Shown here one piece after another: positions 920-6,389 of a stretch of 64,000 bases of DNA. The stretch comes from an uncultured Myxococcales bacterium. GTDB lineage: Bacteria > Myxococcota_A > UBA9042. Location: NCBI GenBank assembly GCA_903924465.1, contig CAIYBN010000040.1, positions 1 to 64,000 of the forward strand. Reading direction: 5' to 3'. Position numbers and translations under genes: made by a program. Position 1 is the first letter of the stretch. Every line of letters begins with the position of its first letter. The notes beneath the pieces are model-generated. The model did no database searches. It was not told the origin of the DNA and saw only the letters and a program-made list of their open reading frames with translations.

Positions 920-2719
920 CTACTTCGACAGCCGCTTTTCCAGGCCCTCAAGCTCCGTCCACAGCTCCTTCGGCATCTTCTTGCCGAACTTCGGATAGTG
1001 CTCAGCGCGAACGTCGGCGATTTCCTTGACCCAGCCCTCGTGGTCGACCTTCAGCAGCTCGGCCATGTCTTCCTTGGACACGCCGTCCGGGCGGTCAAAG
1101 CCGTCCACCGACGGCATGATGCCGATGTCGGTTTCGACGAACTTGCCGGTGCCTTCGCACTGTTCGAAGATCCACTTCAGCACGCGGCTGTTCTCGCCGT
1201 AGCCCGGCCACAGCCAGCGGCCTTCCTGGGTCTTGCGAAACCAGTTGACGAAGAAGATCTTCGGCAGCTTGGCGCCTTCCTTCTGGCCGATGTTGATCCA
1301 ATGCTGGAAGTAGTCGCCCATGTGATAGCCGCAGAACGGCAACATCGCGAAGGGGTCGCGGCGCACGGTGCCGGCCTTGAGATCCAACGCGGCGGCGGTC
1401 ACTTCCGAGCCGACGATGGAGCCGAGGAACACGCCGTGATTCCAACTGCGCGCCTGGTGGACCAACGGAATGGTGCTGGGGCGACGGCCGCCAAACAAGA
1501 TGGCGCTGATCGGCACGCCCGCGGGATCCTGCCATTCGTCGGCGATCGCCGGGCACTGACTGGCCGGCGTCGTGAAGCGGGAATTCGCGTGCGCGGCGAC
1601 TTCCTTCTTGTCCCAAATGCGGCCCTTCCAATCGATGACCTGCCCTTCCGGCGGGTCAAAGCCGATGCCTTCCCACCACACGTCGCCGTCGCTGGTCAGC
1701 GCGACATTCGTGAAGATGGTGTTGGTCTCGCAGGCCGCCATCGCATTGGGATTGCTGAGCTTCGACGTGCCCGGCGCGACGCCAAAGAAGCCGTATTCCG
1801 GATTGATCGCGTAGAGTTGGCCGTCCTTGCCGAACTTCATCCACGCGATGTCATCGCCGACTGTCTCGACCTTCCAGCCGGGAATCGTCGGCACCAACAT
1901 GGCCAGGTTCGTCTTGCCGCAAGCGCTCGGAAACGCGGCGCAGACAAATTTGACCACGCCCTTGGGGCTCGTCAGCTTCAGGATGAGCATGTGCTCGGCC
2001 AGCCAACCCTCGTCGCGCGCCTGCACGGACGCGATCCGCAGCGCGAGGCACTTTTTGCCCAGCAGCGCGTTGCCGCCGTAGCCCGAGCCGTACGACCAAA
2101 TCAGCCGCTCTTCCGGAAAGTGCGAGATGTACTTCTTGTCCAGCGGCGCGCACGGCCACACCCCGTTGTCGGCCTCGCCCGGCGCCAGCGGCTTGCCGAC
2201 CGAATGCAGGCACGGCACGAACTCACCGTGTTCGCCCAGCACTTCCAGCACGCGCGTGCCCACGCGGGTCATCAGGTGCATGTTCGCGACAACATAGGCG
2301 CTATCGGTGATTTCCACGCCGATCTTGGCGATCGGCGAACCGACCGGGCCCATCGAAAACGGGATGACGTAAAGCGTCCGGCCAGCCATGCAACTGTCGT
2401 ACAACGCACGCATTTCCAGTTTCAACGCATCCGGATCCATCCAATTGTTCGTCGGCCCGGCGTCGTCCTTGTCGACGCTGGCGATGTAGGTGCGGTTTTC
2501 CACACGCGCGACGTCCGACGGGTCGGAGCGGAACAAGTAGCTGTTCGGACGCTTCGCATGATTCAGCGGCGTTGCGAGACCCTCGGTGACCGTTTCCGCA
2601 ATCATCCTGTCATATTCGGCGCGCGAACCGTCGCACCACTCGACGTGGGCTGGCTTGACCATGCGGACGACTTCGTCGACCCAGTTGAGCAATTTTTGAT
2701 TGGAAGTTGGCGTTGTCAT
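920..2719 (-). CDS. pckG: Phosphoenolpyruvate carboxykinase (GTP)
   Basis: Interconverts oxaloacetate plus GTP and PEP plus CO2 plus GDP in the cytoplasm, the entry point to gluconeogenesis. The 599-residue length is typical of the GTP-dependent family and unlike the ATP-dependent one. The signature P-loop [12 protein letters not shown] is intact, and the conserved NWFRK segment lies in the C-terminal half. The ATG at 2719 has GAGGA just upstream. The open frame runs 95 codons further, but that stretch is arginine-rich shadow sequence. It is transcribed alone, divergently from the selenoprotein gene. The family assignment is certain; the direction of flux is not visible. Confidence 0.97.
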
Positions 2720-2959: not shown

Positions 2960-2983
2960 GGGCCGCCTGAGCAGGAGGTGCAG

Positions 2984-3688
2984 ATGCACAGAAATTGGAG
3001 CCAAAACGCCACCGGGATGCCACTCGTCGCGCTGATGGTCGCTGCGGCAGTGGCTTGCGTCCCCGATGCCGCTGCACCGTCGGGTGCCGGAGCGCTCGCC
3101 AGCGCGGACACGTCGGGCGATGGCAGCGTGAACCAGTGTCTCGGCGTGACGCCGCCCTCCTCAGCATGGCAGGCGAAGGCCGGCCCGGAAGGCGTCGCCG
3201 GCCTGACGGCGCCCGTGCTCGGCGCCCAGGAACCAACGTTTGCGTTGACCGATTTTCAGCCGCAAAGCTGCGGGTTCGGCGCGACGTACGGCCTGCCGAC
3301 ATTTGCCGGCAAGGTGACCGTCGTCGCAATTCTGGCCGGGTGGTGAAGCTACTGCACATCCCAGGCTGGGATGCTCGAACAAATGCGACTGGAACTGCAA
3401 AAAGCCGGCTATGACGTGAACTTCCTGTCGGTGAACAAGGCCGACGCGGCGGCAAATCAGCAGGCGCTCATCGATCGCTGCGCGTTTCCGCTGTTTCAGG
3501 ACACGACGGAAGTGAACGCATGGGCGCTGATCGGCGCCAAGAAGGACGACATGCTCATCTACGGCGCGGACGGCAAATTGCTGGACTACCTGCCCAACGG
3601 CGGCGACCGCATCACCAACTTGTCCATGCATGAAGGCTACGACACCGTCAAAGCGGCCATCCTCGCCGTCGCCGCCAAGAAGCCGTGA
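2984..3688 (+). CDS. SelP N-terminal-like redoxin selenoprotein, UGA (3344-3346) read as Sec
   Basis: Read through an in-frame TGA at 3344-3346, this is a 234-residue exported protein. AGGAGG precedes the ATG, and a lipoprotein-type signal ends at Cys25. A thioredoxin-fold domain follows, with [12 protein letters not shown] before residue 121 and USYC as a UxxC motif (U121, C124). Downstream, [19 protein letters not shown] and [13 protein letters not shown] follow the order and spacing I recall for the N-terminal domain of animal selenoprotein P, where Sec sits at the same place (from memory, not aligned). A hairpin fitting the bacterial SECIS rules follows the UGA. The downstream half has no ribosome-binding site of its own, which argues against two genes. 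It overlaps the next gene. Likely an extracytoplasmic thiol/selenol oxidoreductase with unknown substrate. Confidence 0.85.
3357..3373 (+). promoter_or_regulatory. Candidate bacterial SECIS hairpin
   Basis: CATCCCA at 3357-3363 pairs perfectly with TGGGATG at 3367-3373 around a GGC loop. The loop begins 17 nucleotides after the UGA. Bacterial SECIS elements need a small apical loop with G among its first two bases, about 16-37 nucleotides after the UGA, and this one meets both rules. It would bind SelB to direct Sec-tRNA to codon 121. The hairpin is itself coding. Confidence 0.75.
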
Positions 3689-4713
3689 AGGGACTGGCTA
3701 TCGCGGTGCTGCTGGCGGCGTGTGGCAGCGCTTCACCCGAGGATCCGCAGATCGTCGCTGGGCGTGACGCTTATCTGCGTTACTGCGCGCTGTGTCACGG
3801 TGACGTCGGCCAAGGATACGTCGCAGATGCGGCGAATGCGCTGAGCAACTCGTATTTCCAAGCTGCAGCGAGCGACGATTTCTTGCGGGCGAGCATCATC
3901 CGCGGCCGTCCGGGCACGCCAATGTCACCGTGGGGCATGGCGCTGGGCGGGCCTCTGGGCGATGCGCAGGTCGAGCAAATCCTCGCATTCCTGCGCTCCT
4001 TTCAGACCAATCCGCCCTTCGCACTGGCGGACGTGCATCCCGGGACCGGCAAGGCGACGCGCGGGCAACCGGTGTACAACGTGGAATGCCTGAACTGTCA
4101 CGGTCAGGACGGCGGCGGCAAGCCGTTCATGGGCATCGCCAATCCGGAATTCCTGGCCGGTGCGAGCGACGCCTACCTGCGTGCGGCGATTCTTTTTGGC
4201 CGGCCCGGGACGCCGATGCCAGCTTATGCGAACACGCTGACGAACCAGGCAGTCGACGATTTGGTGGCGCTGATCCGCAGTTGGCAAAAGTCGACGGTGG
4301 AAGGGCCGAGCCAGCTGCCAGGGCAGGATTTGGGTCAGATTGTCCAGCATTTGGATGGACCAGCGCCAGCGTTCGCGACCCAAGCCGGCCGCTATGTGGC
4401 TGCCGCGGACCTCAAGGCAGCGCTGGACGCCGGCGCGAGGCTGGCGATCCTGGATGCGCGACCGCCTGCCGACTATCCCGGTTTTCACCTGCCCGGCGCT
4501 GTATCGACACCTTTTTATGGCGTGGAGAACTACCTGACCCAAATTCCCAAGGATGCGTGGATCGTCACGTACTGCGCCTGTCCTCACGCCGAGTCAGGGC
4601 AAGCCGCCGACGCCCTGCTGGCGCATGGCTACACGACGGTCAAAGTACTGGATGAAGGGATTCTGTTCTGGAAAGCCCAAGGCTATCCGGTGCACACGGG
4701 CGTGACGCCGTAG
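3685..4713 (+). CDS. Lipoprotein with two cytochrome c domains and a C-terminal rhodanese domain
   Basis: 342 residues. The lipobox LLAAC places Cys13 at the lipidated N-terminus. Two class I cytochrome c units follow, with haem motifs CALCH (34-38) and CLNCH (135-139) and Met-containing GTPM segments as possible axial ligands. The last hundred residues are rhodanese-like, with the DARPPADYPGFHLPGA segment and an active-site loop YCACPHAESG. The GTG start overlaps the stop of the selenoprotein gene (GTGA), so the two are translationally coupled. An envelope-anchored dihaem protein with a sulfur-transfer domain next to a selenol redoxin suggests electron exchange between thiol/sulfur chemistry and a respiratory chain. 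That role is inferred. Confidence 0.88.
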   Translation: MKGLAIAVLLAACGSASPEDPQIVAGRDAYLRYCALCHGDVGQGYVADAANALSNSYFQAAASDDFLRASIIRGRPGTPMSPWGMALGGPLGDAQVEQILAFLRSFQTNPPFALADVHPGTGKATRGQPVYNVECLNCHGQDGGGKPFMGIANPEFLAGASDAYLRAAILFGRPGTPMPAYANTLTNQAVDDLVALIRSWQKSTVEGPSQLPGQDLGQIVQHLDGPAPAFATQAGRYVAAADLKAALDAGARLAILDARPPADYPGFHLPGAVSTPFYGVENYLTQIPKDAWIVTYCACPHAESGQAADALLAHGYTTVKVLDEGILFWKAQGYPVHTGVTP

Positions 4714-4722
4714 CAGTGGACG

Positions 4723-6389
4723 CTATTTGCCGACGCGCGCGCAGCCCAGCATGATGTCGACTTGCGCCGCCGTGTCCGCCGTGACGGTCTTGCAGGTTTG
4801 CGCGCACAGCAGGATCTTGGTCGGCGCGACCGGATCGTCGTAGTGCCAGCCGCCCGTCGCCGGATCGCACTTCGCTTCGTCAGCCACGTAGGGAAGTGTC
4901 TGCGGCGCACCACCGCCAACCGCGGTTTGGACGTTGACCTTGGAAAAATCCACCGGCTGGCCATTGGTCGGCACCGGAATCGCATACTGACAGCCCAGCG
5001 CTTTGCCCTGAATCGCCTTGAGCGCCGCGCCAAATTGCGTCACGACATTGCCGTTGGTGTCGACCACGAAGGCCTGACCCGTGCCGCCGCCCGCGGCAAT
5101 CGCGTTGAGCGATCCCAGCGAACTGCCCACGCCGATGACAAATGTCAGCACCTTCGGCGAGCCGTTCGCGCCATTCTTGGCGATGTTGGCGATCGACGGA
5201 ATGTCCTGCGGATCGCACAAGGTCGGCTCGCCATCGGTGGCAAACGCGACGACAACCGTGTGCGTCGGGTTCTGCTTGGCCCAGTTTTGCGCATAGATGA
5301 TCGCGCCGCTGAGCGCAGCCGCCGTGGGCGTGTTGCCGTCCGGGCCATGGTTGGCGATCGACTGCGCGATGGCTGGCCCCACGCCCGGCAGTGCGGCGAT
5401 ACCCACTTCCGCCTTGGAATAGTCTGAAATCGTGCAGGAATACGAGTCGCCGGTGAAGAAATTGCCCTTGATGACCTTGGGAAAATATTGGATGCCCACG
5501 CCGATGCCCGCCGATGCCGGATCGCCGACGAAGGTGCTCAACGCCTGCTTGATCGATTCCCACTTGCTGATGCCCGTACCGCTTGCGCCGGTCGGATCGC
5601 CCATCGAGCCGGACTGATCCATCATGATGAAATGTCCAATGGAATCAGCGTCGCGGTCTGCGTGCTCGACGCGCACTCGCACGCGTTGTTCACGCACTTC
5701 GCGCCGTCGCAGCTCAGGCCGCAGCTGCCACAGTGCAACGGGTCGTTGCTGATGTTGATTTCGCAGCCGTCGTCGGGGGATTGGTTGCAGTCCGCGAAGC
5801 CCGGTGTGCACTTGAGCGTGCAGGCCGCGTTGATGCACCGCGGCGCAGCGTTCGGACCGCCGGGGCATTCCTTATTGCAATCGCCGCAATGCGTCTCGTC
5901 GCCGTCGGTGTTGGTGTCACAGTTGAGCGGGTCGCTCTTGCAGACCTGCCAGCCCGGATCGCACGACGCGCCGCAGACGGAATTCACGCACGTCGGCGTG
6001 CCATTGGCCACGGCGCCGCACACTTTGTCGCAGCTACCGCAGTGCGACGGATGCTCTGTGCTATTGATTTCGCAACCATTTTTGAGGTTGCCGTCGCAGT
6101 CCAGAAAGCCGGTATGACACGCGATGCCGCACTGCCCCGCATTGCACGTTGCATCCGCGTTGGCCGCCGCGACGCAGGTGCCGCCGCAGGTCTTGTCGTC
6201 GCCGCTGCCCGTGCCGGTGCTGGTCCCGTCCAGGTAGCTCTTGCCCCCGTCCGGCAATTTGTACGCGCTGCCACCGCCGCCCGCACCGCTCGTGTTGCTG
6301 CACCCGACGGCCATCGCCAAAACGGCTGCGAGGACAACTGCTGGAATCCAACGCGTCATGCCGGTATTTTCAGTCACGGGTGCACTCAT
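4723..6389 (-). pseudogene. Cys-rich lipoprotein with C-terminal VWA domain, split by a frameshift near 5630
   Basis: Two overlapping frames make one protein. The 5-prime frame (5622-6389) carries a lipoprotein signal (LAMAVGC) and about four Cys-rich repeats of the type CEINISNDPLHCGSCGLSC. It then reads TQTATLIPLDI and stops. The 3-prime frame (4723 to about 5640) continues as FIMMDQSGSMGDP, a von Willebrand A domain with the MIDAS motif DQSGS and ATDGEPT. Homologous architectures read straight from PLDI into FIMMDQSGSM, which needs one more A in the AAA run at 5630-5632 (plus strand). Either a sequencing deletion or a real frameshift explains this. Start may be ATG 6389 or 6359; the latter gives a 20-residue signal. 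Likely a surface adhesion or binding protein. Confidence 0.8.

Follow-up and report, generated by a model that had tools for sequence, protein, structure and literature searches.

In a 64,000-nucleotide stretch of DNA from an uncultured Myxococcales bacterium (contig CAIYBN010000040.1), hereafter the window, two open reading frames lie in the same register on the forward strand. An initial annotation had taken these frames for the halves of one probable selenoprotein gene, and joint translation confirmed that the TGA at 3344-3346 alone parts them. Read as U, in the context GW-U-SYC, this codon yields a 234-residue product with U121 and Cys124 and with one selenocysteine (Sec) in all. The joined frame begins at an ATG served by a good ribosome-binding site, and its stop codon overlaps the GTG start of the next gene, which encodes a diheme cytochrome c-rhodanese fusion protein (Table 1). 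A simple scan of the sequence revealed neither a promoter nor a terminator. Divergent from the joined gene lies a gene for a GTP-dependent PEP carboxykinase (920-2713, minus strand), which adjoins the corresponding gene in a second genome (G002) too. Also on the minus strand, 4723-6389 encodes a secreted protein that has Cys-rich repeats as well as an MDQSGSM (VWA-like) motif. A frameshift near 5625, either an assembly error or a real mutation, breaks it here, and in four congeners it is a single open frame.

Table 1. Features of the locus, in window coordinates
Feature	Position	Strand	Remarks
Ribosome-binding site AGGAGGTG	2973-2980	+	3 nt 5' of the ATG at 2984; read from sequence
Predicted selenoprotein gene: SelP_N-like redoxin, 234 aa	2984-3688	+	Ends in TGA at 3686-3688; N-terminus a probable lipoprotein signal (Cys25)
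Thioredoxin-like domain, PF04592 SelP_N match	3305-3583	+	Residues 108-200; AlphaFold mean pLDDT 95.9 (residues 71-234)
UGA codon, near-certain selenocysteine (U121), first residue of UxxC	3344-3346	+	TGA or TGC/TGT in homologues; Sec machinery in genome
Cys124 codon, putative resolving Cys of UxxC	3353-3355	+	Invariant in alignment A2
Bacterial SECIS hairpin	3356-3374	+	Stem closes on A-GGC-U; 3356-3363 pairs with 3367-3374
Putative partner gene: diheme cytochrome c-rhodanese fusion	3685-4713	+	Start codon GTG; GTGA shared with the end of the preceding gene

A standard gene caller would treat the internal TGA as an ordinary nonsense mutation or as the stop between two genes, leaving the downstream frame as a relic or an independent ORF, and the GC-rich window does hold 151 comparable TGA codons with at least 60 open codons on each side. 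Since six of these 151 have a Cys at -3 or +3 (UxxC or CxxU), the UxxC around a read-through TGA is weak evidence alone, and we rejected the motif by itself as proof of Sec. What lifts the present case above chance is that a SelP_N domain match spans the UGA, that its column is kept as UGA or Cys among homologues, that the frame downstream is conserved and that a SECIS hairpin follows.

Of the 36 related genomes searched, 31 encode a homologue of the protein. Most of the close homologues have a single in-frame TGA, and on read-through their U falls in the same column of the alignment, ahead of [SG][YF]C. The initial annotation had proposed looking for Cys at position 121 in homologues; across 35 aligned homologues from the same phylum, the column holds either Sec or Cys, with UGA in 27 (the window's own included) and Cys in 8. 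The Cys rows are those of G003 and G004, which belong to the same genus as the window (TGC/TGT), G026 (TGC/TGT), Plesiocystis pacifica and four further genomes. On a tree of the 35 rows, parsimony counted about six exchanges between Sec and Cys, at least two of which are forced by supported branches. Behind the UGA, comparison with four congeners gave dN values of 0.17-0.24 and dS values of 0.53-1.07; dN is lower than dS, and the downstream frame is therefore under purifying selection. One contig scan was back-translated with Cys codons only and could thus find only Cys homologues. Two homologues, L047 (in G027) and one at G026:C11, contain two in-frame TGA codons each, and the second TGA of L047, five codons before the next stop, may be a true stop. 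There is also a longer Cys paralogue, L002 (G000:C138:53462-53902), which is 28% identical and has CGAC, with KSD for KDD; open frames of about 400 aa resembling it match in G001, G003 and G005. The sole yield of a plasmid search was a set of weak TlpA matches in Gordonia.

In addition to the features listed in the initial annotation, most Sec homologues carry a UCCCAGGCUGGGA-type hairpin 12-30 nt behind the UGA. Across 24 sequences, 92.7% of cells were paired in this hairpin, and both sides had changed at five of its eight pairs (25 double-changed cells). The resulting covariation score was 0.423, compared to 0.108 +/- 0.025 in shuffled alignments, none of which reached it in 500 attempts, and the signal was lost in slid-register controls (0.135 at most). 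The hairpin also falls within every published limit for bacterial SECIS elements, namely an apical loop of 3-9 nt with G in the first two places, a stem of 4-16 bp, a distance of 16-37 nt from the UGA and an MFE of at most -7.5 (PMC13188914): it has a GGC loop closed by A-U (N1-GGN-N2) on a stem of 7-8 bp, lies 17 nt from the UGA and has an MFE of -10.9. Because its single-sequence fold is just mildly unusual (z -1.6), the argument for a SECIS element is carried by covariation and not by energy. A scan with Rfam at the gathering threshold returned no RNA family in the window, after which we built our own covariance model of the SECIS element, R1. The best match of R1 in the genome was this hairpin (54.6 bits) and the next best reached 18.1 bits, so that the model found no second strong SECIS site there. 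It recovered the held-out Sec homologues L065 (42.7 bits) and L077 (39.5 bits) and gave no match on three Cys homologues of the same groups (L027, L028 and L038). In two Sec sequences, L036 and L078, the hairpin has diverged.

The initial annotation had also called for a search of the genome for selA, selB, selC and selD, and all four turned out to be present above curated cut-offs. The genome that contains the window (5.8 Mb, 94.6% complete) encodes a tRNA-Sec (selC; anticodon TCA, 71 bits), selB (281.6 bits against a cut-off of 242.25), selA (470 bits against 267.9) and two selD genes (373 and 365 bits against 125). The two selD copies lie at G000:C62:30756-31697 and G000:C91:3857-4774. With the UGA/Cys column, the four sel genes, the purifying selection and the covarying SECIS element all in agreement, the original proposal of Sec at residue 121 through an in-frame UGA holds, and we regard it as near certain, from the sequence evidence, that selenocysteine is inserted at the UGA at 3344. 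That the codon is a nonsense mutation, or a stop that separates two genes, is very improbable, given that UGA is retained at the same column across many species of several families, that homologues without UGA have Cys there, that the codons behind it are under purifying selection, that the hairpin covaries and that the Sec machinery is complete.

The product had initially been described as SelP-like, after the N-terminal domain of animal selenoprotein P (SELENOP), with alignment to PF04592 suggested as a check. The match to this profile (SelP_N) scored 45.8 bits, above the cut-off of 23.2; it spans the UGA and covers only positions 24-122 of the 234 in the profile. All 25 aligned relatives matched SelP_N as well (E <= 0.001), and within the phylum the model found matches in 38 out of 284 genomes, against none in 14 control genomes. 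The UGYC/UGAC redoxins L051 and L053 of the same class were not matched by SelP_N, which is therefore not a general thioredoxin signal. By profile, then, the predicted product is a member of the SelP_N group of thioredoxin-fold proteins. It shares with the N-terminal domain of animal SELENOP a UxxC (U121-S-Y-C124) at the place of the thioredoxin CxxC, the place of the motif in SelP being taken from Lobanov et al. 2008 (PMC2397514), as well as the elements QA..LE..R, W and KDD..IY..G. When profiles were compared with the N-terminal domain of human SelP, a result that serves as a lead only, identity was 34% over 113 columns (E 3.7e-19), and the alignment ran through KDD..IY..G. Unlike animal SELENOP, the bacterial protein has a single Sec and no His-rich or Sec-rich C-terminal part, its SECIS element is of the bacterial kind and lies within the coding sequence, and it is probably a lipoprotein. 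A C-terminal Sec/Cys-rich selenium transport region is absent, the protein ending at residue 234. The likeness to SelP thus stands for the fold and the active site; it does not extend to selenium transport, as the Sec-rich tail is missing and only the N-terminal thioredoxin-like part is represented.

Two further Pfam families passed their cut-offs at lower scores than SelP_N, AhpC-TSA (PF00578; 37.9 bits against 26) and Redoxin (PF08534; 30.7 bits against 26.6). Together with the existence of Prx-like UxxC selenoproteins as a known bacterial kind (PMC13188914), these scores would fit an AhpC/TSA-type (Prx-like) peroxidase in which Sec121 is the peroxidatic residue and which is functionally unconnected to the cytochrome-rhodanese protein. 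We consider such a peroxidase improbable, given the higher score of SelP_N, the thioredoxin-type nature of the UxxC motif, in place of which true peroxiredoxins have TxxU, and the strong gene linkage with the cytochrome-rhodanese gene in one part of the family, described below. Of the NCBI models, the nearest was NF053656 redoxin_TUGYCR, a thioredoxin fold (seleno)protein model named for its UGYC motif, which scored 68.9-70.4 bits (68.9 bits over residues 84-203) against a curated cut-off of 100; we found no paper on TUGYCR. The redoxins L051 (263-718) and L053 (1501-1992), which form a separate UGYC/UGAC selenoprotein group, matched this model about as well as the SelP_N-like protein did and likewise fell below its cut-off.

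A catalogue published in 2026 comprises 119 prokaryotic selenoprotein families or subfamilies, UxxC Prx-like and Redoxin proteins included, and has no SelP_N entry among them (PMC13188914). Its PF00578 and PF08534 UxxC selenoproteins likewise combine a thioredoxin fold, a UxxC and a bacterial SECIS element; the window protein differs from them in scoring higher for SelP_N. Our literature search returned nothing relevant on selenoproteins of Myxococcota, nor on Plesiocystis pacifica together with selenocysteine. The proteins described here would therefore add a selenoprotein group that the catalogue does not name to a broader UxxC redoxin kind that is already known.

AlphaFold modelling predicted, with high confidence, a thioredoxin fold of the ResA/TlpA/CcmG kind, so that the modelled protein has its overall fold in common with these periplasmic thioredoxins. 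The best fold matches in the PDB were ResA, DsbE/CcmG and PDI-like proteins (TM up to 0.83 by target), and none of 42 PDB sequence matches was a SelP structure. The KDD conserved in the SelP_N-like family sits about where TlpA-like proteins have PT(S/T), a placement made by reading alone. Lobanov et al. 2008 described the N-terminal domain of SelP as a distant relative of bacterial TlpA and ResA (PMC2397514). That published relationship, the fold neighbours and the position of a gene for a thioredoxin-like, probable lipoprotein beside a cytochrome c gene all suggest the main rival to the function that we propose below, in which the protein would be a Sec-containing ResA/CcmG/TlpA variant that acts in cytochrome c maturation as the reductant of the haem-binding CxxCH cysteines in the neighbouring diheme cytochrome. 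This role nevertheless appears unlikely: scores for the respective families were far under their cut-offs (TlpA 24.8 against 230, ResA 14.7 against 170, dsbE 13.8 against 123), profile comparison with a TlpA-like domain from the same class aligned 71 columns only (E 6e-9), and beside many of the Sec homologues a cytochrome gene is missing.

We next consider where the protein may act. Read by eye, its N-terminus has AVAC at residues 22-25, which is weaker than the canonical lipobox [LVI][ASTVI][GAS]C, and close homologues have the canonical lipoboxes LAAC, LLAC and LTAC. It is thus plausible that the SelP_N-like protein is, as the initial annotation proposed, exported and lipid-anchored.

The product of the overlapping gene joins a pair of cytochrome c domains to a rhodanese domain in which YCACPH replaces the usual active loop. 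The model nearest to its rhodanese part was NF041203 rhodanese_LYCAU (rhodanese form 3; 54.5 bits), with YCAC present. In the catalogue, the motif of rhodanese form 3 is CxU (PMC13188914), and both this motif and the family name put Sec at the second Cys place. The cytochrome-rhodanese protein differs from the NF041203 family in scoring below its cut-off of 115, in having Cys for Sec and in the fusion to two cytochrome c domains. In a search of 36 genomes, the nine best cytochrome-rhodanese matches (E <= 1e-86), from families f1, f6 and f7, all adjoined the SelP_N-like redoxin gene, and by the rhodanese motif the same adjacency was seen in G246, which has the Sec form, and in G235, which has the Cys form. 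In Plesiocystis pacifica (Cys form) the redoxin and cytochrome-rhodanese genes are divergent. Many Sec homologues have no cytochrome-rhodanese neighbour, however, and the gene link is therefore limited to one part of the family and is not universal. Another set of diheme cytochrome c-rhodanese proteins (L104, L105 and L106; YCACPHHAS) is about 40% identical to the putative partner. No SelP_N-like gene was found near paralogues at this level of identity in the stretches read from G020, G010 and G015, so that the link concerns one orthologous group. The conserved gene pair, a SelP_N redoxin and a diheme cytochrome c-rhodanese protein, would have a redox role at the cell envelope.

We therefore propose the following model for the function of the pair. 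On the sequence evidence above, SelB and tRNA-Sec act on the hairpin behind the codon and decode UGA 3344 as Sec. The protein would then be exported, and an N-terminal lipid would anchor it at the cell envelope. There it may serve as a thiol-disulfide (selenol) oxidoreductase, in which the selenolate of Sec121 would attack its substrate, whether disulfide, persulfide or peroxide, after which Cys124 would resolve the intermediate as a selenenylsulfide. The most likely dedicated partner would be the cytochrome-rhodanese product of the overlapping gene. The pair may connect the thiols of the periplasm with the cytochrome c pool by passing electrons and perhaps also sulfane sulfur, the latter on the CxC cysteines of the rhodanese domain. 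The part of this scheme that involves the cytochrome-rhodanese protein we regard as evenly balanced. The account as a whole, comprising Sec decoding, SelP_N membership and an envelope oxidoreductase with a cytochrome-rhodanese partner, is in our judgement probable.

Finally, these results bear on how such genes are annotated and on the history of SelP. Gene callers that have no model for Sec would split SelP_N-like Sec genes. The small, single-Sec bacterial proteins may also serve as systems for studying the chemistry of the SelP domain. Bacterial Sec at the same site, together with the SelP_N match, makes the origin of the animal domain testable by phylogeny. We tentatively raise the possibility that the N-terminal domain of animal SelP descends from such myxobacterial proteins, or that both go back to a common Sec-containing ancestor. 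If this is true, animal SelP would owe its Sec to a redox protein of the bacterial envelope, which in part of its family works with a cytochrome-rhodanese partner, and the residue would not have arisen anew in animals.
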